DNA from: Adineta ricciae
Lineage: Eukaryota > Rotifera > Eurotatoria > Adinetida > Adinetidae
DNA: 64,000 bases
Assembly: GCA_905250025.1 (NCBI GenBank)
Contig: CAJNOJ010000007.1
Location: forward strand, 124,001 to 188,000
Direction of reading: 5' to 3'
The notes beneath the pieces are model-generated. The model saw nothing but the letters and a program-made list of their open reading frames with translations. It ran no database searches and was not told the origin of the DNA. A program made the position numbers and the translations under genes. Below are positions 2,436 to 46,005 of the stretch, in pieces. Within the stretch, counting starts at the first letter, position 1, and every line of letters begins with the position of its first letter.

Positions 2436-3646
2436 CTATTCGTTATCGTTGATATATTTGATTGTTGCATCAGCATTGCCGTGTTTCGCTTTGTATGTAT
2501 CAAATAAACGTCTCAATGCATCCATGTATTGCCCGTGATATTTGTCGATGATATCTGGAGTGATCTGATCATTATCTAATTTAGGCAATTCGATAGGTTC
2601 ACCAACATATGTGTCAATAGCATGACGATTCGGCATAAATCCGAAGGCATATTGAAAAATACCACGCCCTTTAAAGACTGGTGTGGCAAAACCTAAACGC
2701 TTTTGTATTTTGATTTGTATCTGTCGTAGTTTGGAACCGAATGGATTGGCTAGCTGATCATAGAGATCGTTTTCACCAAAGGAAAAAACGGGAACAAGGC
2801 TTGCACCATTTGCTAAACCTATTTTCACGAAACCTTTGCGGTTCTTTAACGTTAAGATGTATTCATGGGACGGATGTGCATCTAATGACTCTTTTGCACC
2901 TCCTAAGACTAACATAATGCTATTTCCATTGCCTTTCTTCAGAACATAATTGCACGATTCTTTCGAAGCATCACATAAACCCATCATGGATAGATAAACA
3001 CCGTAGAATGGAATACGAAAATTAACTTTTAGCGTTAGAAGACGAAGATCAATTCCGGGAAACTTTTCTTCGAAGCCTGTTGCTTCAGTAGCAAAATTAC
3101 AGAGTGCACCTAAAGAAATAATTCCATGCGGATGATAACCAAATATATACGGACGATCAGGTGGTAAATCATATGTTTTATGTAAGTGAATGGGGAAGTA
3201 ATCTAGAATAATTCAAATTCAATCAGATTAGCAGAAGAAACAGTCGAAATTTCTGAAGCGTTCTTACCAGCAAACCATTTCCACCATTTTAATCGTCGAA
3301 ACCACTGTTGTTTCAAGCCTCCTTCGTATGGATACTTTTGAAAAAATACCATCCATGTTAAGTACGCAATAAATGCACCGACGACATACCAATTGTGACA
3401 ACGAAGTAGAACTAAGGATATATAGAGGCATATCCATGGCATTAAAAACCATGTGAGTATAGTTAAAGTTTGTCGTCGACGATATAGAGGAATGTTCAAT
3501 GGGGCAAACGTACGATTTGTAGGTGTCGATGGTGCGAGTATCATCGACTCTCTGGCTAGTTTTTCTTCCGGTACCATTTTGGTATTTTCATCTTCAGGTT
3601 CAGTGATTACCGGTGATGATGAAGGGGCTACGATTTCTTCCGTCAT
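2436..3646 (-). CDS. DGAT2: Diacylglycerol O-acyltransferase 2-type acyltransferase
   Basis: Two exons, 3646-3268 and 3202-2436, are separated by a 65-bp GT-AG intron (phase 1) and give a 381-residue protein, close to the usual 350-390 of the DGAT2/MOGAT family. The family acyltransferase signature HPHG is present at about residues 149-152, just after the splice junction. A pair of hydrophobic segments at about residues 58-95 (ILTWFLMPWICLYI and LVLLRCHNWYVVGAFIAYLTW) forms the ER-membrane hairpin. Further family features are GGAKESL and the run around LANGASLVPVFSFGE. Family members transfer an acyl chain from acyl-CoA to diacylglycerol or monoacylglycerol at the ER and lipid droplets. DGAT2 and MOGAT cannot be separated by eye. 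Confidence 0.9.
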
Positions 3647-4437
3647 GATTACACGTAAAGAATGATGTGAAATAGATTGAATGGACTGTCTTTTTATATT
3701 GTGCTTATCTCCTTATCATCCAATGGCCGTCATAAGAAACGATACGACCTTTTGTCTTTCGCCAAAAATACAATTATACCATTACCTCTGATATCAATAG
3801 ATGATGAATTTGGTGTACATGTGTACTTCACATCTATATCAGCGTATACTATCTGATATATTAAATTTTATTTTGTAGACTATGGACTTTGAAAAGCGGT
3901 AGTATCAGTGTAAAATGCAAAGGTGAAGTGTATGAATCATCGAATGGAAGTGTTCTATTTTTTTGTTTCTCTTCGTTTGAGTCGATAGACTGTACGCCTT
4001 TCTGTCAGCAACGCAAAAGAAAGAGAAAAATAAGAATATAAAACTTCGAACTAAAAATATTTTCGTATGAGAAAAAAATGTAAATAATGGAATTTCTTGT
4101 TGACATGTATATGCAATAGAAGAATAGTTATCTAGTTTATGCTTTCAACTATCTACAGTTGATTTTCAATCGGAGACAAATAATGGTAAAATCGAAAGTG
4201 ACAGTTATCGATATCTCTCAGATATCGGTGTCAATATTATTCAATCATATTTTCTCGCTATACATCACATGGCCATCGACCCCGTGATTAGCAATGATGA
4301 ACAGGAGAAAATAAAGGTAGAATAAAAACAAAAGTAAATCGCAAATCGACAGAAACTATAAGTACGCACTTAACCAATCAAATCAAAAGACCGAACTGTC
4401 AGTGCATACATAACAATAACTAAATAGTAGATGAACC
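3647..4437. other. Intergenic region between divergent DGAT2-like and TIR genes
   Basis: AT-rich sequence of about 790 bp with no convincing reading frame. It must contain both the DGAT2-like promoter (minus strand) and the promoter of the first TIR gene (plus strand). No clear core element could be assigned. Confidence 0.6.
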
Positions 4438-6858
4438 ATGGCAAGTAGTTTTGACCTTCTTGTAGCTCAACTTACAGTTGATGCCAACCTCCGCGAAATA
4501 ACAAATGTTCTCAAAAGTCAGAACTCCGTACTGGAATCAACATTCATTTCTGAATTTTATCAACCAATACTTACTCTCGAACGATGGACCTGGCAGCTGT
4601 TTGGCAAAAATTCGCATCAAAACTTTCAACAGTCAACTTATTTCGATTTCTTCCGAACCTTGGCATTATTCAATAAAAATCTAGTCTTTCATTATGACAC
4701 GATCGATAGTGTCACAAAAGCTGCTGTCATTATTCCTGATACGATCGAATGGATAAACGATATATTCACGCAATTAGCAAACATTACTGATGAAAATGAT
4801 ATATACATTTATATTGTGAGTATGTGGTTTGATAATCTCTCATTGTTCTTATTTGACAATCCTGAACACGAAGCATCTCCTGCTATCGTTCATATCAATC
4901 GATACATTGCGCAGAATTATATTATGACTGATCAATACAAATTTTATTTATCTCAACTAGCACAACCGTCAGTATCACAAACAATTTTCACTGCGAAACA
5001 ATTGTTCTATATAAAGACATGTTCATTGTCTTTGAGTGCGTATTTATTTGCTAAAGCACAAGATTTTCTTTATACAAGTAGCGACATCCTCCAGCATCTT
5101 GGTCCCTATTACACACAAATAATCATCCTTCATACTCAGACAATCGAATCATGGAGTTCGTCTTTACTTACTTGTATTACACATTTGATTAGCTTTTTCG
5201 TTTCTTGTTGTTGGTGGGGAGGAGAAAAAAATTCACCTATTCGAATTCTCTTTGCCAACGACGCGGGTGCTGGCGTATATATCGACGCTCTCATTCGTAT
5301 TGTCGAGCACAAACCATTTCGTCAATATCTCTCATCACAACAATCATCCGACCATACCATTCTCCTTGACAGAACTTTATTCTCTCTGATTAACATTTCA
5401 CAAAATCAAGAAATGATTTGGTTCCTACGCTCAAAACCGATGCTAGTAGATGTGTTAATAGAACTTGCTGAAACATCGGTATACGATAATGTCTGTTTGT
5501 GTATATTTAGTATTCTAGCTGAAATTTTGAGTAATGAACGTTTAAAAGAATTAAAGATCCCAGATAGTGCGAGTAGTTATTTCTTTCGTATTCTTGAGGA
5601 TGCGTGGAACCATCCGTTGAAAAAGTTTAAACAGATACCGATTTATTACATACTGAAACGTAAGTCATACCGGTGATTCGATCGAAATCTGTGATATTAA
5701 TTGATTCCTATTGTTTTAGTTTATATTACCTTATCGAAAATCGATGCTATTCAACAGACAACAGCAAATACAAATAAGATTCCACTCTTGATTGAAATGT
5801 GCGATGAATATCCAATGATATTCGATATCCTTTGGGCATTATCCTTCAATCATGATGTTCAACAGCAACTGCGTTCCAATTCGTCGTTTATGACAAAATT
5901 AAACCATCCACCTAAAGAATACAATAACGAACAGATAAGGAAAATCGTGCAAGGAATTCTATGGAATTTAGAAACTACTCACAAAGATCGAACTACATCG
6001 TTGACGAGCGATGAAAAAATGTTCGATATTATGATTAGTTACTCACATAAAGACGAAGTTATTTGTCGAAAAATATACGATGAATTAATCAAAACCGGTT
6101 ATCGCATTTGGATTGATTTCGATCAACTACACGGAAACGTTATGGATGCTATGGCACAAGCAATTGAACGATCCAATGCAATCGTCATTTGTATGAGTGA
6201 AGAATATCGTCGAAGTAATTATTGTCGAGCAGAAGCTCACTATGCATTTCAACGACAATTGAAGATGGTTCCCATTCTACTGAAAGAGCATTATCAACCG
6301 GATGGTTGGCTACTATTCCTAGTTGGTCAATTGTTTTACATTGACTTCACAAAATACGAATTTTCACAAGCGATCGAAATGTTAAACAAAGAATTAAAAG
6401 CACCAGTGATTAACGATTTCGGTTTGTTGCGTATTTGTTCGAAAGAAGAAATTGAAAATGCAGAACCTGCAACACCATTTTGTCTATCAACAGCATCGTC
6501 AGTATCGATAATCCCAAAAAATTTGCATGAATGGAACTCAACACACGTACAAGATTGGATGATCACGCACGATTTATCACAACTGAGTCGTGTATTTGCT
6601 AACTTCAATGGCTCAAGTTTGATTCATATGTATGAATTTATCGAAAAACTTGATCTTCAACAAGTTGTCACTCTGCTTCAAGACGATTCTGTACGGCGAA
6701 CAGGTCAAAATCTATCATTGGTCGAACTATCGCATTTTCGATCTCTCATGAAACAACAAATACAATCTTCTCCACCATTTTCCAGCACTCTAAAACGAAC
6801 GAAACGAAATCTAAACAAATGGAAACATAAGCCTCTTGTTAGTTGTCAAATAATTTAA
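4438..6858 (+). CDS. ARM-like/TIR/SAM-like protein with C-terminal CaaX box (paralogue 1)
   Basis: Exon 1 (4438-5659, 1222 nt) and exon 2 (5720-6858) are joined over a 60-bp phase-1 intron and give 786 residues. Residues 1 to about 480 are all-helical and resemble an armadillo/HEAT-type scaffold, with a CCWWGG motif midway. Residues about 509-617 are a TIR domain: FDIMISYSHKD opening, a BB-loop-like segment (RIWIDFDQLHG), and a glutamate in CRAEAHYAF (about E579) at the position of the catalytic Glu of SARM1-type NAD-cleaving TIR domains. Residues about 676-757 look like a SAM domain (VQDWM, FNGSSLI, LVELSHF). The tail is strongly basic and ends CQII, a canonical CaaX prenylation box. The domain order differs from SARM1 (ARM-SAM-SAM-TIR). 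NADase activity, signalling role and membrane anchoring are inference. A poly(A) signal lies at 6878-6883. Confidence 0.88.
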
Positions 6859-7117
6859 TAAAAACAATCGTTTTCATAATAAACAGTGATGACTCACAGA
6901 GTAGCTTGTAAAACATCTAATATTTAGTTAAGCCGGTGAAAGTCGTAGAAATGTATCAATATGAGTCTCTGTTTTTCTTACTCTATCCACATGTCAACGT
7001 CATGATACTAAGAAAAGATGAAAGAGAAAAATAAATAGTACCTGTTTTTGTTTGAAAATATTGTACACAATGAGAGTCAACCAAAGGCACATTTCATTCT
7101 ACGTCGTACGTTAACCA

Positions 7118-9504
7118 ATGACGAACAATATCGAAGACCTTGTTGCTAATCTTTCTTCAACAACGTTGGCAGATACAGTTTCTAGTGAAATAGCAACTAT
7201 TCTCCAAAACGTTGACACGAAATCTTTACTCAAATTCGTTTCCGAGAATTTCAATGCCTTACTCGTACTCGAACAATCGATATGGCAAATACTTAGTGAA
7301 GACTCTCGTCACTGTTTCGACCAATCGAAATGTTTCGAAGAATTATTTCACACTCTTCTTTCGTTCAATAAAAATCTCATATTCACATCCGATGAAACAA
7401 ACTCCGATATGAAAGTTTCTCTACTCACTCCTCAATCACAAGACATTATAACTGGTATATTAAAACAGCTTGAAAACTGCAATGACGACAATGATCCGTA
7501 TTACGTGATGATCAGTCTCTGGTTGGATAATTTTTCATATTATATGCATGAAGAAGCACAATATGTCATGTCGTCTGTGGTGAACGATTTAGAATACTCA
7601 ATTGCCGATAAATTCATCATGGTAGATCAATACAAGGCCTATTTAAATCAATTGCAGCAGACAAATTTTAGTCACAAACAATTATTTTACTTGCAAACAT
7701 GTTCATTTTCAATCAGTTCGTACCTTTTCTGCAAGGGTCAGAAACTTCCTTTTACCAGCGAAGAAATACTTCATTATCTTGCGAAAGATTATCTTCAATT
7801 AATTCAGCAATCTAGTTTCAACGTTCAATCGTGGAGTAAAGACTTTCTTTCGTGCATAACACAAATTAATAATCTTATCAATGCATGCTGCTGGTGGAGT
7901 AGCGACAAAGAAAAAAGTATTAAGATACTTCTACCATCGAAAGATATTTCTCATATGCACATTCAGTCATTGATTCGGATACTTCAATATAAGCCATTTC
8001 ACCAAGAAATTCAAGTACAACGATCAAATACCGAAACGATTCTAATCGGTACAATAATGAATCTCTTGATTGTTATATCAGACATCCATAGTTTAGTTTG
8101 TTTCATACGTACGGAGACGAAATTAATCGAAATACTTTTACCCTTAGCAGAAACATCGAAGTACAACCGAATCAGTTTATTCGCATATGTAATATTAGGT
8201 GAAGTTCTGTCTGATGAACATTTAAAAGAATTGAAAATTACGACTAACATTTGTGATTACTTTTTCTATATGCTCGAACATGCTTGGAATCATCCAGCAC
8301 ATCATTTTCAACGTACATCTGTACCACAATTACTTCGAGGTAAGAATCAAATTCTTTCAAATGACGCACATGCGCTTATGTCTCCATTCTATTCAATGTA
8401 GGATTTCTAAATTTGGCTAAGAATGATATTATACAACAAAAAACTGCGGATACCAATCGAATTCCACTTCTAATTAACATGTGTGATCAATATTCAATAG
8501 TATATGATATTCTCTGGGCATTATCCTTCAATCACGATATTCAACATCAATTACGTTCCAATCGTAAACTAATGATGAAATTAACTCATCTGAAACAAGA
8601 ACTTAACAATGCTGCAATGCGTAAAATAACTCATGGAATACTGTGGAATTTAGAATCAATACATGAAGATCGAGCTCCATCGGAAAACGAGGATGGAACA
8701 ACGTTCGATATCATGATCAGTTATTCACACAAAGACAAGCTTTTATGCAAACAAATTTATGATGAACTCATCAATACTGGTTATCGCGTTTGGATTGATT
8801 TCGATCAGTTACGCGGAAACGTCATGGATGCCATGACACAAGCAATTGAACGATCGAATATGATCGTCATTTGTATGAGTGAAGAGTATCGTCGCAGTAA
8901 TTATTGTCGAGCAGAAGCTCACTATGCATTTCAACGACAATTGAAAATGGTTCCGATTCTTCTCGAAAAACACTATCGACCAGACGGCTGGCTTTTATTT
9001 CTTGTCGGTCAACTATTGTACGTTGACTTTACGAAGTATGAGTTCGCACGAGCAATGGAAATGTTATTCAAAGAACTCGAAGCACCCATTCAGCAAGACC
9101 ACAAAGTTACATTGACATTGACTGAAACAACGGATCCAGCAGTTGTTATCAACAATGATGAAACAACGTTGTTGGAATCATCATCTCTACCGGATGATAT
9201 TTCCGAATGGAGACAAACCGATGTTCAAAATTGGTTAATAGGACTAAATCTCATGCAAACATCTCGTCTGCTGTGTGACTACAACGGTTCGAATTTAATG
9301 AATTTGAATAGATATTTATCAACTAGTGAACCACAGGTGATTCTAAAATTTCTTCAGGATGATGCGATCGAAAAAACCAATCAGAATCTATCGTTGATCG
9401 AATTTGCCCGTTTTCAAGATCTTCTCGGTCAGCAGATTTCCTATTCGAAGAAATTCAATCGTCGACAAAAGCCATCTCGTTTTCTATGTTGTACTATTTT
9501 GTAA
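7118..9504 (+). CDS. ARM-like/TIR/SAM-like protein with C-terminal CaaX box (paralogue 2)
   Basis: Tandem paralogue of the preceding gene, 259 bp downstream on the same strand. Exon 1 (7118-8339) is again exactly 1222 nt, and exon 2 (8402-9504) follows a 62-bp phase-1 intron at the same position; the product is 774 residues. The TIR domain again starts at about residue 509 and is nearly identical to paralogue 1 over FDQLRGNVMDAM to QLLYVDFTKYEF, with the same glutamate at about 579. The ARM-like N-terminus (CCWWSSDKEKS at the matching place) and the SAM-like region are far more diverged. The C-terminus is basic and ends FLCCTIL: a CaaX box (CTIL) with a second adjacent cysteine that could be palmitoylated. 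Function is inferred as for paralogue 1. Confidence 0.88.
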
Positions 9505-15484: not shown

Positions 15485-15682
15485 CTAAATTTATGAACAT
15501 CAAATCAAGTTGAATCAGAGCATTTTTCATATTACCCTTTTACGAACACTTGTCAAGTAGTAATAAAAAGCATACAGTTCATATTGTCGTATTATATAGA
15601 CTTAGTCAATGATCAGCGATCAGTGTATTGTAATATATTTCATATCGATCGATTTGAAATGTTGTAAAATAAATAAAAAAAA

Positions 15683-15800
15683 GCTTACGACACTCGGTAT
15701 TCCCAGGCGGTCACCCATCCAAGTACTAACCGAGCCCGACGTTGCTTAACTTCAGTGATCGGACGAGAACTGGTGTATTCAACGTGGTATGGCCGTAAGC
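15683..15800 (-). rRNA. 5S ribosomal RNA (copy 1)
   Basis: A complete 5S rRNA of about 118-120 nt, transcribed on the minus strand and starting GCTTACGGCCATACCACG. The internal control region is intact (GTTAAGCAACGTCGGGC and TTGGATGGGTGACCGCC), and the ends pair (GCTTACG with CGTAAGC). A minus-strand run of T directly after the RNA is a Pol III terminator. The sequence is identical to the copies at 17091 and 45888. Confidence 0.97.
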
Positions 15801-17047: not shown

Positions 17048-17090
17048 CTTGTACGAAGTAAACTTTTGAAAAGAGGGAATAAATAAAAAA

Positions 17091-17208
17091 GCTTACGACA
17101 CTCGGTATTCCCAGGCGGTCACCCATCCAAGTACTAACCGAGCCCGACGTTGCTTAACTTCAGTGATCGGACGAGAACTGGTGTATTCAACGTGGTATGG
17201 CCGTAAGC
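17091..17208 (-). rRNA. 5S ribosomal RNA (copy 2)
   Basis: Identical to copy 1 over all 118 nt, on the same strand, with a T-run terminator on its 3' side. It starts 44 bp after the stop codon of the CorA-like gene and lies 72 bp before the first ATG of the giant gene. Confidence 0.97.
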
Positions 17209-17279: not shown

Positions 17280-20200
17280 ATGTTTGGCAATAGTCATNGT
17301 TGGGGTGATGACACGAAAACTGTTGTTCGACAAGAAGGGGAATTGAAAATCGAAGATTTTGTTGAATTTGAAGAAACTGAACCGACTGTTGTCGAAGAAA
17401 TACTCTACGAACTTGTTTACTCTGGTGATAACTTGAAAACCTGCCGTCAAATTCATCGTTCTCGTTCCGAATCGCGAAACTTTCGCAAAATTAAAAAACG
17501 CCGCACTAAACGAAAAGTTCATCCGAATGACGATTCATCTTACATAACTTCACAAGCAACATCGAGAGATACAAGCGGTACACGTTCACCATACTACAAT
17601 GATGGTCAATACAGTCCTGATCGTTCATCCACACCCACCCAATCAGTTTTGTCAACATCCTGGCAATCGACAGGATTTACATCAACAGACAAATCAAATG
17701 AACTACCTTTTCGCAGTCAATCTCATGAAGGCAATTATGTTAATAAAGTCCCAGTGAATGAATATCAAACATATCCACGTACAACAATCACGCAGAACAA
17801 TATACAATATGAAACATTCGAAACAGACAATAATGATAAACAAAAGATCCACCTGGTTGATGAAATGCGATATATATCAAATCAAATTGATACGTTAATT
17901 ACAGCTGATGATGATGATGGTTTAATTGAAAATGACAAATACACGCCTATCATTAGTGAAAAGCGAGGAATCACTCAAATAACACTTGCACCGACAACTG
18001 CCGATCGAACTGATGACAGTGTGCAACTTGATCTACATTCATTCGATACAAATGAACTTCTACCGTCAAAAGGAAACGATCAATTTAGAACAACTTCTCT
18101 ATCAACAGACGACAAAGAACAATCAAGGATAAACATTATCGAGCAAACATCTCTACCGAAAGAAACCAGTCGTAAGTAATTATTCTATCTTTCTTCCAAA
18201 TTCTTTTATCTGTTATTCGTAAACTTCCCATAACATAAACATGCATTAAGTGTCTCTTCAAAGCTCGAAATCAATTGTGAAAACATTGAAATTAATCGTT
18301 TTAACATTAGTTGAGAGCAGGAAGGTTTCGCTATTTAAATATTTGAGAAGATATTCAAATGCTAACAAACTAAAAATTTCATCGAAGAAAAAAAGGACTT
18401 ATCTTTCCTGTCCGTTTTTTTTACTTTGATTTTAAGTACATATGATTTGTTAGTAAGAATAATAACCTATCATTTCTTAATTGTCTTTTCAAGGCCAACA
18501 AATTTATTTAACTGGTAATGAAAAACAAATCAATGACATAATTTCAACGAAATATGATGAATCGGAAAAGGAGGATGAGGACCTATCAAGTACAACTGGA
18601 CCGACCGTACAAGAAAATGAAAAAGATGGACAAAGAACGGGAAAAGATACTGATGAGGACGCTTCTTTTTCCGAAGGTGAACAATTCTCATTGAACTCTG
18701 CCAAGTCAGATACACATCAACAGGCACAACATACGATAACTGATCAATTTCATGCATCACCTCTAACTTCATCAGCAATAATTAAAGATGAAAACAAAAC
18801 TATTGATGAAACAAAACAGTACCTCATCGATGAACTCAATGACATCGAATCTCAATTGAAATCCCTTGAATCCGAAGAAGAACAACTACGAAATGTTCTC
18901 GATCGAAAGGTAGTAGTTCAGTTCCTCCTCTCTCTCTCTCTGTCTATCGCAAATTGCTCAATTTGTCTTTTTAGGATACGGAAGAGCTGTTTCCTAGCGA
19001 TGATCAGTCGGAATCTGTTGAAACTTTTTCATCGAATGTACCTGAAAAGACCGTATTGTCAGTGACAATCGATGATGACGACAGCAATGAATCAATTCAA
19101 GAGAGTGAAGAAGATCTTCGGCCATTTTTGAACTCTTTAACAGCTCATCTAATGCCAGAATTACCAAGAGTATTCGAAGACGAAACCGAAGATGAACTCT
19201 CGTTCACATCGGAATCGAAATCATTCGAAGAGCCGACTTCTCAAGAAGATCACGCCACTACTTCAGAAGTACAACAAACTAAAGAGAAGTCTCATCAGCA
19301 TATTTCATCAGAACAAATTGAAACAAAGTAAATAGAGTTGCTAGTCTTTGTTCTTTGTTCTTTTTTCAATTACATCACTTGAATTTGAACTTCACTTTTG
19401 TTTGATTTAGAACTCAAGATAATCTACCGAAAGATCAAACAATATCTGACAGAGATGAAGCCAAACAAGAACAGAAAGAACATGGCATAGTTTCGGATAT
19501 TCAAGAAGATCTCTTGGATCAACACGTACCAACAACGAAAGAAACAGCACATTCGATTGATTCTTCAGTTGATATTATTCAAGAACTCATAACAACTGAT
19601 AAAATATCTCAAGATCAGAACGAACAAGAAACAATTTCTCTAACCTCTTCCACTCCATTGCAATCAAGACAATTAACATTTGAAGAGACACATGAGGTGA
19701 CAGACGAACAATCGAGCAATGTTGATTCTCTTACTGATATTGTTCGGCAAGCAAACACTCAACCTTCGAACGAAGAGGAAGATAAATTACCATCTGTCGA
19801 TGCTGGTGCTGACCGTACGCAACCTGTTAGCACATCTGAGCAGAAACAGCAGGAATTAGGTTCCAGTATCTCATATACTGCTAATGAAACTGGTGAAAGA
19901 AGAACATCTATCGATCGTCAAGGACGATCACTTGAGCTGCAATCATCAAAAGTATCTGATGAACAATTATCATCAGATTCTCTCGTCGATATTGTTCGTC
20001 AGATTCGTACAATACCCCAAATCACTCGTCTTCCATTTACTGATACGAAATTAGCAACGACTGACCTCACTGAATACGAAATTGAAAAGCCGTCCGTTGA
20101 TTATCATATCGATATCATAGAAACAAACGAAAGCATTCCACATGAACCGGTGACAATAACTGAAGAACGTCTATTATCTACAGCAAATGAACGAGCTCCT

Positions 20201-23200
20201 GTCACAGAGACTCGATCTGAATCAACTCCTCAAGATACGGTGCAAGAAGCTCAAACTGAACGTCTTTCATCTGAACCTGAACCTACCGCAGGTGAAGAAC
20301 ACTCTACGACACCGTTGGCTACGCAAATCAATTTACGCGATTCAATAACAGAAACTCCTGTGTTTACAGAAAAACAAGCATTGAATGAATCATTTGATAA
20401 AAGTGTTGATGAAAACATCGAGTAAGTTATTTTTCGTCTTTTTTTCTACGGTAGAGTTATTAATTATTGTTTTAATAGCAAACAACAAGTGTTGCCCGGT
20501 CAACAAGCTACGCACAGTTCTAATCTTTCAATAACAGAAAAACATTTTACTGATGAATTCGTCACAGACGCTATTCCAATTAGTACGCAATTCGTGGAAC
20601 AAACAGCACATGACATTCGTCGATCATCGGTTCAAGAACAAAACAAAGAAGATGTAGCTGAACAATTGTCAGCTAATGCTATTACTGGAGCCATCGAAGA
20701 TATTCATGTTACTCCATCGCCGGTTGAACGATCAGAAGATAAAATCAAGCCCGATTTGTCCACGTCAACGACCGTATTAGAAGAGAAACCATTAGAAAAG
20801 CCCAGTGAAGTTGAAGTAATTGCAGATAATGAAAGCCAGTCAAAAACACAAATAACATCTGATTTACAAGCGCCAGCAACAGAAGATATTGACACGGAAA
20901 AAGTACAAATTATCGAGTCAACAACTTCCACAGCGATTACTGATGTTCGACCCAAGCATGAAGAGGCTGTCGCTGACCAACTATCATCAGAAGCTTTGGC
21001 TGATGTTGTTCGTCAAATTCATGCAACACCACTTGCTACTCGGCGTACGGTGACGCAAACCAGTGAGACAAAACACGAGGATTACGTAACATCTGCCGAT
21101 TCGACTATACCAACGAATGAAAAAGAACTTACATTGACTACATCCGAAATCGCACAGAATGACATTGAGTCTGTTGAAACACCATTGCATCAAGGCAAAG
21201 AAAACGAAAATGAAGCTGATCGTCTCTCATCTGATGTGTTAGCTAATGTAGAATGTGAAGTTCTCGCTCCATCTCCAGCGTCCGAACAACAAACTCAACA
21301 GTCAGAAGAAAATAAACAACAAGAAACCGAAGCTCAACGTCTATCAACAGAAACATTGACAACCGTTGTTCATGAACTTCTTAGTGCACCAGCAATCAGC
21401 CAATCTTCTTCAATCGAACACGAAGTCGAAAAGATAACTTCTCAAGACGATTCGACCAAGTCAAATATCCCGTCGAAAGACACTTTTGAACTTCAATCCA
21501 CTCCAGAACAACAAATTGTGTCAGCTAAAGATACGTCTGCAACTGGCCAACATGAGCTCGAACAAAATTTGATGGATGTATCCAAAGATGTTGATACTAG
21601 TTCAACATCGTTATCTTATCAAACACCGACACAAGAAACAAGGTAACATAATCTACATATGATGACGACGTGTTAATATGTCTACTTTTCGCCTATATCT
21701 TCAGATTCAAACAAGTGACCGAAGAAATTACAACAGATGTAACGCCTCATGTGATTGAAACTGGCAAAGACATTAGTGAACAAGAATCCGCACCAGAAAT
21801 TGTTGCCGAAAATCTATCAACGAAAGTTCTGACTGAAGTTGTTCGTGAGGTGCTCACCAAACCGTCAGATACTCGTGTTCCAGAAGTGAAAGAACAATCA
21901 CAGATTATCACAGAGCAAGCACCGTCAAGTGAAGACCAACAACAACCTGGAAAAGTATCTGACGAAGCTGAACGATTAACATCCGAAGCTTTAATTGGTG
22001 CTGTTGAAGAAATACGTTCAACTATACAAGACGAAACACACAAGTCTGCTACAACAACTGAAGTGAGTCGTGCTCTTGCTGATGAACAAGCCGAACAGAA
22101 AGAAGCTGATCATCTACCTACACAAGCCTTAACTGATGTCGCACAAGAAATACTTGCCGCAACAGCCTCTGCTAATGCGCCATCAGAAGTTGAAAAAGTA
22201 CGATCAAGTGATCAATTGACAGAAGCTGCAGCAGAAAATGTAACAACGGATGTGCTAACTGAAGTTGTGCGTGAAATGCTGGCCAGTCCAGTTTCTGTTC
22301 GTACATCATCTATTGCAAAAGAAACAACCGTCTATGACGAGATACCTAGTGAAGAAGTAATGAATAAATCTGCAGGGGCAACAACATCGGCTGTACCAAC
22401 AGAACAAGGCGTAACAGTTCCCGAAGAAGTAAAACAATTGCCAGCGACTACTGAAGAAATTCGTTCCAGCACAGATGAACAAACACAAAAGCCTCATACG
22501 ATCACAACCATCACTGAAACAACAACTGAAACTACTGCTGACGATAGTCGTCCACTTTCTGATGAGAAAATCGACCATCGACCTATACAAGCATTGACCG
22601 AGACTGTGAAAGAAACACATGTCACACTCGCCCCCGTTGGTATACCATCACAAGAAACTATAGCAGAGAAGAAAGCTCAACCTAGCGAAGCCGTCGAAAT
22701 GTCATCGTCACCGACAGTCACTTCCACTGCAGAAGAAGAAACTGCAGCAGGAAATGTAACAACAGATGTGTTAACAGAAGTTGTTCATGAAATGCTTGCC
22801 AGCTTACCTTCTCCTCGTTCAGCGTCAGATGTCCCTGTGTCAGAAGTGGCTGCCGTTATCGAAGAAGTAAAAGAATCCTCCACCGAACCATCACAGACAA
22901 CTATGGAACTTGTTAAGCCAAGTGAAATTCCATCAAAAGCACCGATCAATCTTGTTCAAGAGATTCGCTCATTTCCAAACGACACCATCAACCAAATCGA
23001 AACTGATCATTCAGCTGGAGAATCTGTAATCGAATCGATTGAAAAGACGCTCTCTGAAGATCAGAAACCAGTTGAAGAATCGACATCGAATGAAGGTCTC
23101 ACTAAAATCGTTCAAGAAGTACTCACCAAACCATCGGACATTCGTACATCAAAGGAGACTATTGTCATCGAGGAAGCAGAACAAGTTGAAGCGGAACGGT

Positions 23201-26200
23201 TAACATCAGAAGCGTTGACGGATGCTGTTGAAGAAGCTCGTTCGAGCACAGAAGTACCGACACAAAAATCTGATACAACCACGGTTATTACTGAAACAGC
23301 GGTATCATCCGAAGAGACCCGTCTACCTACCGACGAAAGAATCAATGATCACGAGACGGATCGTCCAACTGGCGAAATACAAGCTGAAGCGCTCCAGGAG
23401 GCTGTTGCAATACCGAAAGCTACAGATTTTCCGTCAGAAGATATTGTACTCCAAACAGAAAGTGTAATGGCCGCCGAAGAAAAACCGCCATCGGCACAGG
23501 CAACCACAAGTATGGCGAAAGATCATCAGTTATTGTCAAATGATCAAACAAAAGAGCCTGAACCTGAAATCCCACCATCAGAAGCATTAGCAGAAGTAGT
23601 ACAACAAATGCTTGCTACACCACTTTCAATGCCCCTGTTAGCCACAGCAATCGAACAGCAAAAATCAGTTGAACAGATATCAGAGAAAGTCACCGAAGAA
23701 ATGGCAACTTCTCCAGCTATTGTCAGGACATCAGAGACTTCTACACTAGCGTCGACCGCTTCACCAGAAGAACAGACAACTGCTAGGGAAATAAAACAAG
23801 ATGAAACCATATCTAATGTAGGAAGAACTGAAGAAGTTGAAGCGGAACAATTATTATCGACAACTTTAACTGAAGCTATTGAAGAAATACGTCTAGCCAC
23901 CGAAGAATCAAAAATAAAACCTGAAACGATCACAATTACCACTGAAACGAAGACAACTACTACGACTGAAGAGAGTGGTCCTCTTGTCGATGAGCAACTT
24001 GTACAGAAAGAAACTGATCATTCATCTACACAAGCATTAACCAACGTCGTAAAAGAAATACTTGCTACACCCTCTTCTGCAGAAGTAAGCACTTCTGCTA
24101 CAGCAGATGAAAAAGTAGTTGATGAAATACCAGAGAAATCTACAGAAGAAACGGCATCGACAGAAGTTCTGGCCAGTATAGTTCGTGATGCGCTCACGAA
24201 GCCATCGCTTGTACCCACACAACAAGATACAATAATCATTGAACCATCAGACACCACCATTGAACGAATAACGTCGAGTGAAGAACAACAGCAACGACAA
24301 CAACCTGAAACAGCAGTAACAACAGAAAAGACATTTGATGAATACAAAGCTCAAGAAGTCGAAGCCGAGCGGCTATCATCAGAGGCATTAACTGATGTTG
24401 TCACAGAAATTCGTTCTATCGCTGCACAAAAACTACAAAAACCTCGCGCACCTGCCATCATCGCGAAAACAACTACAACAACAACAGCAAAAACATCTGC
24501 AGAGACTGTTCCACTGCCATCTGAGACAATCAATGAGAAAACTGATCGATTGACCACAGATGCAATACGCGTTGCTGTGCAAGAGGCTGCTGATCTTTCA
24601 TCAGCAGATTCGACTGCAGACAAAACAACGATTGCTATTGAAGAAATGGAAATAACATCACCTCAAACGGGCACTTCCACTACAGGAGACCGTCAGCCGT
24701 TATCAGATAATCTTGTAGAAGAAGCCGAAAATGAAACTCGATCAACAGCAGTTCTCACTGAGGTCCTTCGTGAAATGCTTGCCAGTCCGCTTTCTGCGCC
24801 TAAGCCATCGATTACGCTAGAGCCAACTGCTCAAGATGAAAAACCAGCAGAAGAAGTACTCAAAACACATACTGAAACAACAACATCTACCGACACTCTC
24901 ACAGATTTAGTCCGCGATGCACTTCAAAATACGTCAGATTCTCTTCTTCCGCCAGCGACTACCACGACAGAACAGCAGATCGTTGTTGCCGAAGAGAGAA
25001 GACAGTCATTCACCGAACCGTCACAGACAACTATGGAACTTGTTAAGCCAAGTGAAATTCCATCAGAAGCACCGATCAATCTTGTTCAAGAGATTCGCTC
25101 ATTTCCAAACGACACCATCAACCAAATCGAAACTGATCATTCAGCTGGAGAATCTGTAATCGAATCGATTGAAAAGGCACTCGCTACGCCGACAGATGTT
25201 GACGTACCATCACAAGACACTCCAGCCGATAAGAAAACTGAAGTTGTTGATGAAATCCTGGAAAGTTCACCATCCAATGCCTCGACACCTGCTGCAAAAG
25301 AGACACTCTCTGAAGATCAGAAACCGGTTGAAGAATCGACATCGAGTGAAGGTCTCACTAAAATCGTTCAAGAGGTACTCACCAAACCATCGGACATTCG
25401 TACATCAAAGGAGACTATTGTCATCGAGGAAGCAGAACAAGTTGAAGCGGAACGGTTAACATCAGAAGCGTTGACGGATGCTGTTGAAGAAGCTCGTTCG
25501 AGCACAGAAGTACCGACACAAAAATCTGATACAACAACTGAAGAGAGCCATGTTCTTGCTAATGAAAGCATGGGATACAAGGAAGCTGATGATCAACATA
25601 CTCAATCACTAACTAGTGTCGTTCAAGAAATACTTGCCACACCGCTGTCTGTCGCTCTGTCATCAGAAGATTCTACAACAGAAAAGAGAAATGAAGTTAC
25701 CGAAACCTCACCTACAGAAGCCGTCGCTAGTACCACAGAAGATGAAAAGGTACCATCAAACGATCAGATGATAAGAAGCGCAGCAGAGAATGTAGTAACA
25801 GAAGCACTAGCTGAAGTTATTCGGGAGATGCGTGCTAGTTCACCTTCTACTCTTTCAACATCTGCTCCAAAAGAGACAACCAGTGAAAATCAAGAGCCAA
25901 TCGAAGAAATGAGACAGACGGCTACAGCCGTTTCTGAACCACTATCAGTTGCTTCCATAGAAGACGAAGCAACGGTGATAGAAGAAGAGAAACTACTATC
26001 TGCCGAACCATCACATACAACTGTTGAGGAGGTGAGATCAAATGAAGAAGCACAAGAACACTCTGAAAAGGTATCTGACAAAGTCAAAGCACAAGAAGCT
26101 GAACGTTTATCATCGGAAGTATTGGCCAGTGCTATTGACGAGATCCGTTTCACCGCAGAAGAACCAACAACAACCATCGAAGAGGATCGTTCATTTGCAG

Positions 26201-29200
26201 ATGATACAATGAAAGAAAATGAAGCTGAACGTTTGATTGAAGAAGCAATAACTGATGCTGCTCAAGAGATTCTAGCTGCCTCGTCATCGAATGATCTTCC
26301 ATCGACTGAGACTAGGGCAGGAACTGAAACGTCATCGCCAAAAACAGTCACTGCCGCCAAAGATGATGAACAAGCACCATCACGTGATCAGTTCAATGAA
26401 ATCCAAGCGGAGAATCTATCATGGGAAGCGTTAACAGGTGTAGTCAATGAAATACTCGCCACGTCACCCGCCGCTGTGGTTCAAAAGATCGATTCTACCA
26501 GTCAGAAAGTAGAAACAACATCGTCAACATCAGAACAAAAGCTTGATACACAAACGGATGAGGCTGAATCTTTAGAGAAACGTTCATCTACTGAAGAAAC
26601 ATCGCAGAAAGATAAACCTACAGAAGTCGAAACTGTTCGTGAATATCAGACTACAACACAGAGTGATTCTCTTCCATTGGTGCCTGAAGCGGCAGTGGAC
26701 ACTAGTGAAATCGAGCATTCAAAGGAACTGCCAACATCTGACACTCCTATACGAATTCGTCAGCAGACTAAGGCGATGACACCACCGACAGTTATCATTA
26801 CAAGCGACGACGATGTGGAAATCTCGGACGTCACCGGTGAAATATCTCAACCAACGGAGCTATCGTCTATTATCGAAACTAACGAAGAAACAACACCAGA
26901 CAGTGCAACAAAACGAGAAGAGTTGGCAGAACAATTAAGTTCACCAGCGCCAGCTGAAGCTGAAGGTGAATTGTTTACAGTTTCACCTTCTGCACATCTT
27001 CCAGTTGACGATGGTCAGCAAGTCGTCGAACAATTGCCATCAACTGCATTAGATGAATCTCATAAAGAAGAAACTCTGCCAACAGATGCTCTTACTGAAA
27101 CTGTACGTCAGATTCTATCAACGCCTATATCCATCAGATACTTAACAGAATCCACTATCGAGTCTCCAACGATAACATCTGGAGAAATAACGAAAGTTGT
27201 AGTTTCGTCTGTGCCAACAGCAGATACTGTAATACCAACCGAAGTGACATCTACTCCTGAGCTGAAACTGGAAAAAGCGCCAGAACAAGCTGAGACAGAA
27301 AACGTAACAACTGATTCCTTGGTTGAAACAGTTCGTTTGATCTTAGCCACACCATTGACAATACATCTTCCATCAGCGGATGTCAAATCAGAATCTGCTC
27401 TAGAACTTGTCGCTACTCCTGTGAAAGATCAAGAAGAAAAACCATCAGTGGATTCTCTAGTGGAAGTTACGCGTCAAGTTATCGATGTACCCCAACTCAC
27501 TGAACTGTCCGAAGTATCGAAGCAGCCTGAAACTTCATCTGCTTCTGAAAATGAATCACCATCCTCATCAGCTGATGATGCACGTCATTTGCCTGAACAA
27601 AGAGAGCCAGCGGTTGTACCGAAAGTCGGTTCGGATGAAACATCGGATAAAACTGATGTAACTGACTCGTACGCCGAGTATTACCCAACATCGAGCTTAG
27701 TGAATATTGTCAATACAATACTAAATCTTCCAAACCAAATATCTTCCGAATCTTCTGTTCTACATGAAGAAAATCAAATCATTGCCAGTTCAAAACCTGA
27801 TTTCGACGAACAATTCAAAACTACTGAACTTGCTAATATCAACGCAATGACAACCAAAATCGTCAACAGTCCAGCACACACACCGGAACAATCAGATACA
27901 ACTGAAGATGTATCCTCACAACGCGCCAGTGCCGTTCAATCGACATTGATTGACGAGATTCAAGATAATGTGACAGATTCTGAAAAACTATCAACATTTT
28001 TCGTTCCGCAAGAATCTACTCTCTCAGAAAAGGACTTCCGAGAATTATACGAACAACGTCATTTTATTACAACTGGTGACGAAGATCTATCCACTCAATT
28101 TGCTTCAATTGATCAACCAGAGCCTGATCAAGTAGCTATCTCCACTGACGAAAAAAAATCTATTCCAACTTCGCCATTAGCCTACTATGAAATACAAGAA
28201 CAACGTCATACATTGATGTCTCCTCAAAATTCAGTCGTCAATGAAACCAATGAAACAACGGCTCCAACTTTAACAACATGGACCACTGTTCAACCACGAA
28301 TCGAATACGAAGAAACAGAAATCACAGAGGAAAAGCCTACTATCAACCTGGACGATCAAGCTTACGAACTAGCTCGACGTTTTGATTTAGAATCACCTGC
28401 CATTATATCACACTTGCCAATCCGAGAATATCGACAGGTGTTCGGCATATCTGATGATATTGTAAACACCGTTGATGACATGACTCACCATGTTGATCAC
28501 GTTCTTTCAATGGAATCAAAAAATCAAGAACAAAAACAAGAACGACAACCAATTGTAATCGATGAAATCAAGAGTCTTCCATCGGAATCAAGTGAAAATT
28601 CTGAATTACCCATTGTCGATACACAGGTGTCTGAAAATATCAAAATAATTACTGAAGCAATCCATGCACTTGACTCAGAAATAATCGAACAAGAAGACAC
28701 AGTAGCAAAACATGATCAACAACAGCAGCAAGAACCAAGTTCAGTATCCAGCACTGTTGAGGGTTTGATCAATGAATTAGAGGATCTCGGACCAAGCATT
28801 CAGTCAGCAGCTCTTATTAATGACATTCGAGAAACACTTGGACATGAATCTACCGTTTTTCCATCGAAAGATGAATTACGTGATGAAGATCTACTACCAA
28901 GAACAGCTAAACAAGAACCAGCTAATGACAAATCACTTACAGTCGAATCAAGTTCTCAGTATTCTATTCTACTCGATCAAATCGGTGATTTAGAGAAATC
29001 GCTGCTTGATTCACAACCATCTTCATCAACTGTTGCCGAACGAGAGGAGACAACAATCGAAACTGATGATAACAAAGACGACGAGCATCAGTTACATCAA
29101 CGCTATGATACTTTAATTGATCATGCTAGACGACTGGAAGATGCACTCATCAAAAATCTTGCTCATACAAGTACACACACTGATGAACAAACCGATGATG

Positions 29201-32200
29201 CTACTAGCATCGATAATCTAAGTCAAACAATGGAACAAATTCTCGTTACACCTATTCGCACAGTAACAGGTCCACATGAAGAACCAGTTGCTAGTTCAGG
29301 TCTTGAACATGCTCTCGAACAAATACTAGCAACAACACATTATCCAACGTCATATGCAAAATTGAGTCCGCCAACAGATACGACTGTGCCAGTAGCTAAA
29401 CAAGACGATGTCCTCAAGAGTGAACCTCTGGATGAAGATATCGTGTCAACTGACACACGCAAAGACGAGGCTACAGTATCTGAAATAGAAGAAATAGTGA
29501 CGACTAAAACAACGCAACCGACCACTGCTGATGAGAAAGAATCAGCCCTAGTCGTACTGCCATCGGAGGAAAATAGCTCAATTGAATCTGTCGAAGAGAA
29601 GCAAGCAGTTATATCCCTAGTACCCAATTACTTTACTAGCAGCGATGTATATCACGCATATAAACAACCAGTAAATGCGGTTGTACCACAACAAGATGAA
29701 TCAACTCTTTTGGAAAAAGCAACAACGATCGTCAATAACGTTATCTCCAATGTCGCTAGTATTTTACCAACTGAAACTGAACAACCGAGTATTCCCGCTG
29801 AGAGCCAAGCTATTTCAATTGTTACAGATGATGAAAATGATGCTGAAGGAGAATTATCATCAGAAGGCTTGATCGAAATCATGAAAAATCTCTTACCCAA
29901 CAGTCTTCGACCGCTTGAATCTGATCAGACTGCCTCTGAAGAGCCAAGTGCACCAGATGAAGATGATCAAGATAGCCTGTCGTCGTCAGTAACAGGAACG
30001 ACAGTACAAAGCATTTTCGAAGGAGAAGATCTAACAAGAATCAATCAGACTACAGTAGAAGTATCGTTAAACGAAGAACTATCAATTCCAGTTCCTGAAT
30101 ATTTCACTAGCAATGACGTTTACCATGGTTACAAACAGCCAATAGTACGATCTAGTGAAGAAAAACATGCAGCATCTCTTAATGAAAGAGTGACATCGAT
30201 GGTTGCCGAAATTTTGTCGAGTGCGGTTCATATTTTACCTACATTGGAATCTTTGGAAGAGCCAATTATCTCAAATAGCAACGAACCGCCAGTTGTACCA
30301 GCTACATTGGAAGAAGCTAATGATCACATTCTAAGTTTAGAACAAGATGCGACAGAAACGCGTGCTGCTGACCAGAGAGCGCCGATCGCAAGTTATACAC
30401 CTGGATATTTCATCAGCAGTGATGTTTATCACGCATACAAACAGCCGACCGAAACGATTGTGACACAGAAAGAAGCACCGTCTACCAATGTGTCTGAGGT
30501 ATTATCCACAGCAGCACCTCACGAATCAGCTTCACTTCTTACTGAAGAACATTTGACAACTTCGGGCTTGATGGAAATTATTAAGGATCTTTTACCAACG
30601 AACTTTCAAGCAAACAAAACCGAACTCAATCGTTCTGAAGATCTAAGCTCATTAACAGAAGATGACGGAGACAGCATGTCATCATCGATGACCGGAACGA
30701 CCGTAAGAACTTTATCGGAAGAGGATCTAACGAGAATGACTCAGTCATCAATGGATACGTCATCGAAAGACGAAACATTAACACCGGTACTCGATGATCT
30801 TGGCGGCAGCGATATTCACCGTCCAGCTCAGCAACTATTCGAATCTAGAGTTGAAACGCCAGATTCTCTAGAGCTAAGCGATAGAAAGACACCGATTGAT
30901 GTCAGTGTAACATCTAGTACACTAGACGAAATATCGACGTCTATGGATACTAGTCTCACAGAACAACAGAGTGAGCAATCACGCGTCACAACAACTGAGT
31001 CAACACTTATCGAAGATCAAGAATTACCATCGACTTCAGATGATAGTGAAGCTGTTCTTCTTTTAAAACCTATCGAAGAAAATAGGAATGAACCAACATC
31101 ATCAACAGGACTTTTAGAAATAATGACGAGTTTTCTACCTGTAGTGAAGTCGGAAACCTCTGAAGAACATCCAGTAGAAAGTAGTATATCATCAGACAAT
31201 CAAATATCAGCCGATACCGGAGAAACTGACAGTGGTATTTTATCAAAACTCACATCTGCAGTTACTGATGCCATCACTACAGTTCAACAGATTTTACCAG
31301 CGTCCCTTGTTCAAAATACTGACGCCCAAGAAGAAGCAGATAAACTTGAATCAACAGTAAGTTTAAAACGTGATGTTCTGAACATATTTTACTCCTTTTC
31401 TTTCTTATAGGCACAAACATCAGAGACTGCTCCAAACGAACAACATAGTGTAGTTGATTATGTGATTGAAACGACATCAAACATCAAAGAAGCACTAGCT
31501 CATATTATTCCTGAGGAAACACCGATAGAATCGCTTCAATCGTCAGTGGATACTGATGAAAAAGTGATTCCAAAAGAGAACGAGCAATCGACGATTCAAT
31601 ACAGAAGTGATAGTCAGGTACAAATACAAGAGGATTCAGATCAATTTGATTCGTCCTCTGATATGACTTCCGTGTCAGAAGAAATTAAACCGCATTATCC
31701 ATACAAAGCAAGACAACCTCAAGCACTTCAAGTTCTCAACGATGAATATCCATGGTATGCAAGTTACTATACCATCGCCGATGCAGATGCAAATATGGGT
31801 CACTTGTACAAACGTTTGAGTCGTACGCTCGAACAGCTCGAGCAGCGACCTCCGCCAACAACCGTTCAATTCGAACCCGAACCGTATCAAATCTTAAAAA
31901 CACCAGAATATGATCGACAAGCATTGTTAGATACTGAAGACACACGGGAAAAAGTACATGAACTCGCTCAAATCAGTAAGAAGATTTCTCCGTCAAGTAC
32001 CATGCATGAGTCGGATGAAGATGACGAAGTTCAAGTTAAGCAACGTCGTAAACAAAAGTCTGTGCCAGCCACGAAAGAAAAGACTTCGTCACCATCGACC
32101 ACACCTAAGAATAAATTGTCTCTTAGTCCTGAAAATGAGCAAGCAGATGAATCGGTACCTGTTGCCCAAACAATGAGCACCATCAGTAGCAAGAAGAAGA

Positions 32201-35200
32201 ACAAGAAGTCGAAGAAAGACAAAAAAGATGCAGCCACATCTGAATCTCTTGTTCTATCCAAACCTGATGTGGACGAACCAAAACCAGAACCAACACTGTC
32301 TTCAACGAAAGTCGAACCTGTTGAGTCAGTAGAATCGAAACAAACAACATCCTCTGTTGCAGCTGACTCAGCTCAAATCGAAGAACAACAGAAAATATCC
32401 GATGGACGAAGTGAAGAGCAACAAGCAGAGCCATTATCATTATCGGTTCATTTGGATGCTGAAGAACTTAAAATTCACGATGATGACAAGAACGATTCGA
32501 CATCATCCGATGCTTCACAATGGTCAACGAGTTCATTTGTGATGACCTCAGATGATCAAATAATCGATAGCGAATCACGTGAGAAACTGGCCGATACTCA
32601 AACAGCAGCGATAGCGTCTTCACCAATTTATGAATCAACTAGATCAGAAATAACGACTAGTAGTTTATCAACGCCGAAAAAGAAGAAAGTGAAGCAACAA
32701 AAACAGCAACCATCGGAGAAAGATATTTCTCAGCAATCAAAAGTTTCGACATCTCCAGTAATTCTTGAAGCACCCAAAGTAGTGGAATCCAAACCATCCG
32801 CATCAACACCCTCAAAAATAATGCCAACTGTCCGTACAAAGATCGTCACACTACCAAAAGAGGAAGGAGAAATCGACGATGATGACGAAGGATTTCAAGT
32901 TGTCTCTTATCGTAAACGCGTATCCTCAGTTACAGGGCCGGAAAAAGGTTCAGGATCCTCGTCGTCAGCACCAGTAACGCCACCAGCGAAGAAACGTTTG
33001 AGTGCTGGCGCCGATACTCGACCAAGCACAACGTCCAGTCGTCAAAGTTCGTCTATACCGGTGCTGACATCCATCCTACCGAAACAGAAGAAAGATAAGA
33101 AGGACTTGATACCATCGTCATCTGTCGATGCTGACAGTGTCTTTTCACCAAGTATCGACACTCAGCGTTCTAAACAAGCGGAACAACTGAAAGAGAGCAG
33201 CGATACAACATCGCCAAAATCACTATTTTCTTCACTGTTGACATCAACTAGTAGTCCTTCTATCAGCACAGAAGACAAGTCTGAACAAAAACCAAAAGTG
33301 CAAGACACGAACTTACAAACTCAAATTACACCATTATCGGTATCAACTACCGAAACATCTAAAGCTCAGCCGGAACCCGCTTCGCCAGCTCACACGAAAC
33401 CTGCTGCGAAAGCAACATTGCGTACCAAAGCATCAACTTCGCCTGAAGAAGACTATGACGATGATGACGAAGGATTTCAAGTAGTTCGTCATCGTAAACG
33501 TTTGTTATCAGCACCAAGATCAGCGAAAACATTACCACCTGTGGCAACCGGTCAATCGTCATATCGACAGAACCTTGGTCGTACCATCGACCTGAAGCCA
33601 GCTGTTATTCGTGGGCGATATGGATCAGGCTCGGGATCTGGCTCTCGTTCAGCTCCACGATCAAATACCAGCGGCCAAACTACATCAGATAAACGACAGC
33701 AGAATAAATCGAAACGAGATCGACCCCAGCTGTTACCACTGACCAGTCCGCGTGCAGTAGTCTCCAGAGAACCGCAATCTCAATCTGTATCATCAATGGA
33801 ACCTAAAAAAACAGCTCAGTCAACTGTATTACTATCTAATGAAGAGCATCAACAAGCAAATGAAACGCCGCTACAATCATTAATCACTGAACAAGTGTGG
33901 AAACCAATCGAACAGTCCCAATGGACAGCGACAAATATACAGCAGCAACCAAAACCGATCGATAGTAACAGTGTTCTTCTTTCGACAAAGCCTACATCAA
34001 GCGATCAAAATCAATCGGAACAAAAGACTATTTCAACTACTCCTTTGCTAAGCACAATTGTTTCAACCCAAGTTGAAAAAACAAGCGAACAAAAACCAAA
34101 TGAACAGAAAATTTCTAGCAAACCTGCTGCAGTACAACAGCCCACAGCGAAGGAGACTATTGAGACTTCCAAAGCAGTATTGGCTGATGATGAAGAAGAT
34201 GAAGACGGCTTCCGAGTAGTACGCTATCGTAAACATCCAACATCAGCAACCACGACACCGACATTCCCAAGATCATTCACCCTAACATCCGATCCGGAGA
34301 AAAGAGCACCTAAAATATCCAAAAAGCAACATTCGCTGCCATCGACACCTGCGTCTACGCCGACAGCTATCAGATCCATGATATTCAAAAGAACACCACT
34401 GAAACCAAAGAACAGTGGTGATCAACCTGGTAAATCAATGAATCGCCAAGCCGGTGGCAGTCTGCCATCATCTACTATCAACACCGCAGATCTCCTGCCA
34501 TTGATGCCAGAAAGTTACCCACGCCCAAAACCAATTGAACCAGTTTCTTCCCCTCGCTCGACACCAGCTGCGCCAATCGGCATCGCTAGTACAAAAGAAA
34601 TAAATACCAAAAATAAAAAGGAGCCCACGCGAAAACTACTAGATGATACTGATGAAAAGGTACAATCCACAACATCGCCAATAGTCACAAGCGCAGATAC
34701 AAGTGATGAACAATCGAACAGAACGAAGAAAAAACACAACCGAACAAAGAAAGAAACGGCTGGAGCGGACTTACCTACTCCGTCCGAAGAAGCTTCTCAG
34801 CAAATTGAGACTATTTCATCAGTGACAACTGCACCAGCGATTCATCAATCTCAAACGACACTGACGACGAGACCACTAATGGAAATCGAGCCAACCATCG
34901 AACAATCTGATCTAATCAATTCGCAAGCAAATGCACGTCCGTTGACATCAATGGATTCCAGTACAAATGTCGAAGATGAACAAGATAAAAATACGGCAGC
35001 AAAAAAATCTACGAAAAGACGTAAGAAAAAAGTGCATGCTGCTGACAAGCAAGAGCAAGAAGAAAGCACAGCACACGCTTCCACTACAAGTGTCACCGAT
35101 AAAGAGAGTAGTAGTACAGAAGCAACAACACCAGACAAACAGAGTTCATTCGAATCATCCGTTGCTGTTCGTGCGACATCCACTGATGATAAACAAGAAC

Positions 35201-45887: not shown

Positions 45888-46005
45888 GCTTACGACACTC
45901 GGTATTCCCAGGCGGTCACCCATCCAAGTACTAACCGAGCCCGACGTTGCTTAACTTCAGTGATCGGACGAGAACTGGTGTATTCAACGTGGTATGGCCG
46001 TAAGC
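45888..46005 (-). rRNA. 5S ribosomal RNA (copy 3)
   Basis: Identical in sequence and orientation to copies 1 and 2. The minus-strand 3' flank begins TTTTTG, a Pol III terminator. The 5' flank shares ATTTATC-CTATTT (plus-strand reading) with copy 1 but not copy 2. Confidence 0.97.

Follow-up and report, generated by a model that had tools for sequence, protein, structure and literature searches.

Two adjacent genes of the bdelloid rotifer Adineta ricciae were found to encode TIR proteins, members of a family active in immunity and cell death, that terminate in a canonical CaaX box, the four-residue signal by which cells add a lipid membrane anchor, and ends of the same type were shown to recur at 29 TIR gene ends of its genome. 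The pair lies in a stretch of 64,000 nucleotides (positions 124,001 to 188,000 of contig CAJNOJ010000007.1, here C7, assembly GCA_905250025.1), which was analyzed as a whole and is referred to below as the window. Gene 1 (786 residues) and gene 2 (774 residues) are tandem paralogues on the plus strand. An earlier note, made from the sequence of the window alone, had described the CaaX box as a trait of these two paralogues; the boxes themselves stand, but they recur in proteins of several architectures. The best reading of these data is a set of prenylated TIR proteins that has expanded in this lineage and is built of known parts. We consider it probable that both genes encode cytosolic, prenylated proteins of the order solenoid (ARM-like), TIR and SAM, held at a membrane and belonging to a large TIR set in which the box is under selection. 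We infer prenylation, a membrane location, an enzymatic activity and a role in immunity or cell death.

The Cys codon of the gene 1 box occupies positions 6844-6846 and is followed by QII and a TAA stop codon (6856-6858), while the gene 2 frame ends in two Cys codons (9487-9492), TIL and TAA (9502-9504). The corresponding tails read ...KWKHKPLVSCQII and ...RRQKPSRFLCCTIL, with TAA directly after each. Both ends have Cys at position -4, an aliphatic a2 residue and a permitted X, as is expected of CaaX boxes, and it is confirmed from the sequence that both boxes are real and that each stands precisely where its last open frame terminates, as the earlier note had it. The 20 residues preceding the CaaX Cys include seven Lys or Arg in gene 1 and six in gene 2, with neither Asp nor Glu in either. 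The basic stretch that had been described ahead of the box is therefore present in both window genes, yet family-wide it is found in a minority of tails: 17 of the 25 family tails counted have only one to three Lys or Arg in these 20 residues, and strongly basic linkers (six to nine) were seen in the two window genes, at C19:359 and in the C28 gene. According to the available text of PMC1175975, the linker ahead of a CaaX Cys is flexible and mostly hydrophilic; in the window genes the residues just before the Cys are partly hydrophobic (LVS and FLC). A second Cys directly ahead of the box occurs in three tails, and the one beside the gene 2 box is a candidate palmitoylation site. Of note, two paralogues on C162 (L017 and L018) possess basic tails, ...KKSKC and ...KKNKC, in which Cys is the very last residue.

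To place these ends in their genomic context, the genome (130 Mb in 1033 contigs) was searched with the TIR_2 profile, which returned at least 140 matches, and with exon 2 of gene 2, which returned at least 114. A list of 111 TIR hits was compiled by hand from both searches, with 41 rows omitted, 23 of them at a distance of over 2.5 kb from every hit on the list, and sequence was read at or downstream of 84 of the 111. Twenty-nine gene ends fit the pattern C-x-[ILVM]-[MLSI] at the C-terminus, a number which counts genes and not independent events because some of the genes are near copies. They account for 31 of the 84 hits, as the first copy on C225 and the C28 gene hold two listed TIR hits each. 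The box ends are CQII and CTIL (C7, the window genes); CRMM, CELM and CRLM (C19); CNVM (C171); CSVM twice (C225); CSIM (C28); CSVM (C265); CVLL (C72); CALL (C94); CVVM (C298); CVIS (C52); CMLM and CILM (C252); CIIM and CSLM (C70); CNIL (C81); CNLL (C166); CVLS (C219); CSIM (C483); CQIS twice (C456); CILL twice (C285); CVLS twice (C253); and CSIL (C66). The final residue is Met in 14, Leu in eight, Ser in six and Ile in one. Some of these ends were added to the first set in other ways: one further box on C285 was read by eye, and the control search described below exposed the two genes of C253, the second of C252 and that of C66. The box is also carried by separately spliced SAM exons downstream of the TIR exon, such exons being tied to their TIR exon by position and order, and it spans several architectures, including Death-TIR-TIR, and several parts of the TIR tree. 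As a side observation, the genome shows allele-like pairs of loci; another concerns a weak TIR hit on the minus strand of C280 (127200-128000, L090), which is followed in the same frame by a P-loop-like GPNGIGKTSL and appears NLR- or NACHT-like by eye.

The position of the Cys was also counted in a manner independent of the end pattern. Among the 71 closed TIR frames of the first pass, Cys was found at -4 in 17, and at any one of the remaining 14 positions between -1 and -15 in zero to four. A profile of the family SAM-like region yielded 49 closed frames with Cys at -4 in 18, against zero to four at every other position as far as -12; the 18 ends all fit C-x-[ILVM]-[MLSI].

Each window gene has one short predicted intron at the same site, codon 408, which runs from a GTAAGT donor at 5660 to an AG at 5719 in gene 1, and from a GTAAGA donor at 8340 to an AG at 8401 in gene 2; identity between the two genes is 58% in exon 2 and 39% in exon 1. 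The interval to which the CaaX observation had been assigned, 6520-9504, covers all of gene 2 and only the last part of gene 1.

Features of the two tandem TIR genes, with positions as counted in the window
Feature	Position	Strand	Basis
Gene 1 exon 1, helical ARM-like solenoid region (plausible)	4438..5659	+	Open frame, splice model, homology to gene 2 exon 1
Gene 1 exon 2: solenoid end, TIR, SAM-like region, basic tail, CaaX, stop	5720..6858	+	
Gene 1 TIR domain (TIR_2), candidate catalytic Glu in CRAE	6028..6381	+	Pfam E=8.5e-24
Gene 1 SAM-like region	6529..6762	+	Family profile, seeded partly with gene 1
Gene 1 basic linker (LKRTKRNLNKWKHKPLVS)	6790..6843	+	Sequence
Gene 1 CaaX box CQII	6844..6855	+	
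Gene 2 exon 1, helical ARM-like solenoid region (plausible)	7118..8339	+	Low-confidence model, Foldseek
Gene 2 exon 2: solenoid end, TIR, SAM-like region, basic tail, CaaX, stop	8402..9504	+	
Gene 2 TIR domain (TIR_2), candidate catalytic Glu in CRAE	8710..9060	+	Pfam E=9.8e-24
Gene 2 SAM-like region	9205..9438	+	Pfam SAM_3 E=0.0032, under cut-off; family profile
Gene 2 basic linker, second Cys adjoining box	9439..9489	+	Sequence
Gene 2 CaaX box CTIL	9490..9501	+	

The domain order ARM-TIR-SAM, which had been proposed in the earlier note, is a fair description of both proteins in so far as the TIR domain is certain (Pfam E of about 1e-23), the SAM domain is likely and the ARM-like solenoid ahead of the TIR domain is plausible. 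Support for the SAM assignment comes from a comparison of a profile of 20 family SAM-like regions with solved chains, which gave 27 matches at E<=1, 23 of which are named SAM or pointed-domain; the best match with a passing stretch (E 0.0016) covers the first half of the domain only. The region preceding the TIR domain returned no above-cut-off Pfam match in either gene, and no convincing sequence match in the PDB was obtained for exon 1 of gene 1. AlphaFold models exon 1 of gene 2 as entirely helical (predicted local distance difference test score, pLDDT, of 53.5, which is poor and derives from a two-row alignment), and helical-repeat proteins, for example p120 catenin at E 0.02, make up most of the best Foldseek matches of this model. 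Foldseek searches with both AlphaFold models (pLDDT 40.8 and 53.5), each built on a two-row alignment, gave zero matches at E<0.001; the exon 1 result alone was used, as weak support for the solenoid. A Pfam scan of the two window proteins matched neither a Death nor a GTPase domain.

For each of the four classes of CaaX-processing enzyme the genome encodes matches: strong prenyltransferase-beta matches are present in three pairs of loci, alpha-subunit PPTA repeats were matched, and so were the Rce1-like and ICMT profiles. Cleavage of nicotinamide adenine dinucleotide (NAD) by the TIR domains, as suggested in the earlier note, is possible because the candidate catalytic Glu is intact in both window genes; the residue is there, and the cleavage would be a prediction from it. 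This Glu was aligned in 26 of 27 box-bearing TIR domains (a group that counts C253 twice and C252) and in 33 of 36 others, and the TIR domain of gene 2 could be aligned with that of the plant protein RUN1 through the Glu, as well as with Hydra TRR-2. We take the aligned residue to be the catalytic Glu of SARM1 and RUN1. A tenable, if less probable, alternative is that the boxes are prenylated while the TIR domains act as MyD88-like scaffolds and not as NAD-cleaving enzymes. The Death-TIR-TIR order of one box protein (Pfam Death E=1.1e-11), which recalls MyD88, would fit such a role, as would C265, in which Gln replaces the candidate Glu; the retention of Glu in all but one of the aligned box-bearing domains, both window genes included, and the alignment with RUN1 speak against it.

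The earlier note had further held that the type of motif, and not the sequence, is conserved between the diverged tails, and this was borne out beyond the window. Six diverged pairs, selected for the presence of a box in both partners (the two C7 genes, two of C19, C81/C166, C28/C265, C219/C483 and C72/C94), have 15-residue linkers identical at zero to six positions, yet every pair retains the Cys, an aliphatic residue at a2 and a permitted X; another three pairs consist of near copies, with 10 to 15 of 15 linker positions identical. As part of the joint best explanation, selection probably maintains the box across a large TIR set of this genome, to judge from the sequences. An improbable alternative would regard it as a remnant of one founder gene or a few, carried along by duplication and with little present function. 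This explanation would account for the clustering of the box label in a quick tree of 49 TIR domains, which needs seven changes where shuffled labels need about 17 on average, and for the several close paralogues that are without a box; it sits poorly with the six diverged pairs, allowing for the manner in which they were chosen. The tree included 24 box-bearing domains by the then-current list, with five resolved genes uncovered and two short ones omitted, and box gain and loss are indistinguishable in it. Scans of the viral_contigs and genome_contigs collections with exon 2 of gene 2 found no relative. Separately, a cluster on C19 (L048-L051) comprises seven close paralogues on one contig, three with and four without a box, and several of these are near-identical at the TIR start, which by eye suggests gene conversion.

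PDZ ligands are likewise hydrophobic and exactly terminal, and the residue at -3 decides their class. That the motif is another C-terminal signal of this kind is very unlikely, even though the ends described here are hydrophobic and exactly terminal, as the enrichment concerns Cys at -4 together with [ILVM][MLSI], and the residue at -3 varies (S, V, N, Q, I, R, E, A, T, M).

The frequency of such ends was assessed among open reading frames (ORFs) of the window and of the loci fetched by then. Among ORFs of at least 60 residues, the pattern ends 25 of the 97 with a TIR or SAM match and seven of the 932 others, four of these seven being exons of TIR genes which were conservatively kept as control (Fisher p 2e-21); among those of at least 100 residues, the figures are 25/89 and 4/222 (Fisher p 1.5e-11). 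Both p values are too small because related genes are not independent. Within the window, the pattern is found in two of 54 ORFs of at least 100 residues, both being the two genes, and in seven of 1982 ORFs of at least 20 residues, which corresponds to a base rate of 5/1980 besides the two genes. Furthermore, 25 of the 27 TIR or SAM frames with Cys at -4 also end in [ILVM][MLSI], compared to two of the 70 without it; the two Cys(-4) frames whose assigned end lacks [ILVM][MLSI] are C473 and a C52 frame.

False stops were examined through splice donors. A GT[AG]AG donor is absent from the last 75 nucleotides at all 29 box ends, and is present at or near the frame end in all five read-through frames examined; weaker donor-like strings (GTAAAA, GTAATT) overlap several box stops, that of gene 2 included. 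A last exon that continues past the present stop, the outcome which the earlier note had named as fatal to its proposal, is thus not indicated by the predicted donors. The C473 end CIFL, one of the first-pass 17, was dropped as an intron read-through with a GTAAGG donor, and the near-miss ends HVVL, HSIM and YQSIV were ruled out as decayed boxes, since they too are intron read-throughs, with a box on the true last exon of each. Four frames that lack Cys at -4 were found to run into introns (GTAAGT or GTAAGA donors), and their next exons encode a SAM-like region and end in CSLM, CNIL, CNLL and CVLS. It is scarcely credible that the boxes are functionless chance ends or read-through artefacts: although one of the 17 first-pass ends and four near-miss or plain-end frames were indeed read-throughs, those four lead to boxes once followed to the next exon, none of the 29 stops has a GT[AG]AG donor, and the Fisher values (too small because of kinship), the SAM-frame positional count, the window and TIR/SAM ORF controls and the linker pairs all disfavour it.

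Several points weigh against a prenylated, selected and possibly enzymatic TIR set. The survey comprises 84 of the 111 listed hits, so that the other 27 and the 23 weaker rows fall outside it, and four weaker TIR hits, of which 0.7-0.8 kb each was read, yielded no box, some of them having other architectures by eye. The end pattern was fixed after the first boxes had been seen, and box-bearing genes supplied part of the seed of the SAM profile, whence the count of 18 in 49 SAM frames is biased. CaaX-like ends often arise by chance, as stated in the available text of PMC1175975. The Rce1-like and ICMT profiles also match 11 and five, respectively, of 14 prokaryote control genomes and their matches are therefore weak proof of CaaX processing, while the predicted NADase activity hangs on one residue. 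Finally, the box is missing in six of the 11 closest paralogues (a close clade of 11 genes, of which five keep it) and is hence not needed for every member; it is also missing in C146/C79, C239/C98, C112/C140 and C325, among others.

A mechanism consistent with the prenylated-TIR reading may be proposed as follows. The CaaX Cys would be prenylated, probably by farnesyltransferase where X is Met or Ser and by geranylgeranyltransferase type I where X is Leu or Ile, after which the tail would probably be trimmed and methylated and the protein held at the cytosolic face of membranes. The basic patch of both window proteins, together with the second Cys of gene 2, could strengthen this anchor. The solenoid might serve as a sensor or a brake, while the SAM-like domain and membrane confinement would cluster TIR domains, which once assembled would either cleave NAD or recruit partners. 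The lipid-tethered TIR protein envisaged in the earlier note is in agreement with the canonical boxes and the enzyme matches, tethering being the predicted part. As many TIR genes end in a box, lipid anchors may keep some of the animal's TIR proteins on membranes. A broader scenario, which we regard as doubtful, is that in this lineage, reported to lack canonical Toll-like receptors (TLRs), much of TIR immunity is run at membranes via lipid alone, with dozens of prenylated enzymes or adaptors producing NAD cleavage or a death signal; equally speculative is the corollary that solenoid-TIR-SAM, TIR-SAM and Death-TIR-TIR proteins would assemble on host or pathogen membranes by analogy with OAS1 and GBP1.

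Elsewhere in the window, a minus-strand open frame (2436-3712) appears diacylglycerol acyltransferase-like by eye, its FGYHPHGI presumably being a motif of such enzymes. Three dispersed 5S ribosomal RNA genes of equal score lie on the minus strand (15682-15800, 17090-17208 and 45887-46005), and positions 20001-38000 form a long stretch of raised GC (0.40-0.44) with strong AT skew.

The routes of TIR proteins to membranes are transmembrane receptors and adaptors that are myristoylated or bind lipids, and a prenyl-anchored family would, if true, represent another. No report of a prenylated TIR protein was found in the open-access literature (a scope outside which preprints and most subscription papers fall), and in the available text of open-access papers that combine TIR, NADase and CaaX, the CaaX is used in reporter or control constructs. 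Adineta vaga has been described as possessing TIR and leucine-rich repeat genes, with canonical TLRs not reported in the accessible part of a review (PMC6043800), and a survey, as far as its available text goes, did not find TLRs in several rotifers and found one in the monogonont Epiphanes senta (PMC8609888). If true, the present reading suggests how a bdelloid reported to possess TIR genes and to lack canonical TLRs might bring its TIR proteins to membranes.

As regards known systems, the window genes lack the Death match that would ally them with MyD88. MyD88 is a Death-TIR adaptor, and the protein that shares its Death-then-TIR order is that of C28 (410658-416656, minus strand, L053), which nevertheless has two TIR domains and ends in the CaaX box CSIM; adaptor use is therefore possible in parts of the family. 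SARM1/TIR-1 resembles the window genes in having a helical ARM-like region, a SAM-like region and a TIR domain with the candidate Glu. Its order is ARM-SAM-SAM-TIR, whereas the window genes have an ARM-like region, TIR, one SAM-like region and a terminal CaaX, and on account of this difference in order they are not filed as SARM1; moreover, we know of no CaaX box in SARM1. The roles assigned to its parts in the available text of PMC8494770 are those of a brake (ARM), a multimer (SAM) and an enzyme (TIR). Rho and Ras GTPases, with which the earlier note had compared the tails, share the basic tail and CaaX box with the window genes, in which no GTPase domain was matched. OAS1 is unrelated to TIR proteins in fold and activity. 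Its human p46 form, a prenylated antiviral enzyme, ends in the same CTIL as gene 2, through which it is geranylgeranylated and sent to endomembranes, and thus offers an example of a cytosolic innate-immune protein that is brought to endomembranes by a CaaX box, according to the available text of PMC8357416. For GBP1, a large GTPase, a farnesyl group and a nearby arginine patch are described, in the part of PMC12091997 available, as a two-part anchor for a large assembly on bacterial membranes, while most box-bearing TIR tails in A. ricciae are not strongly basic.

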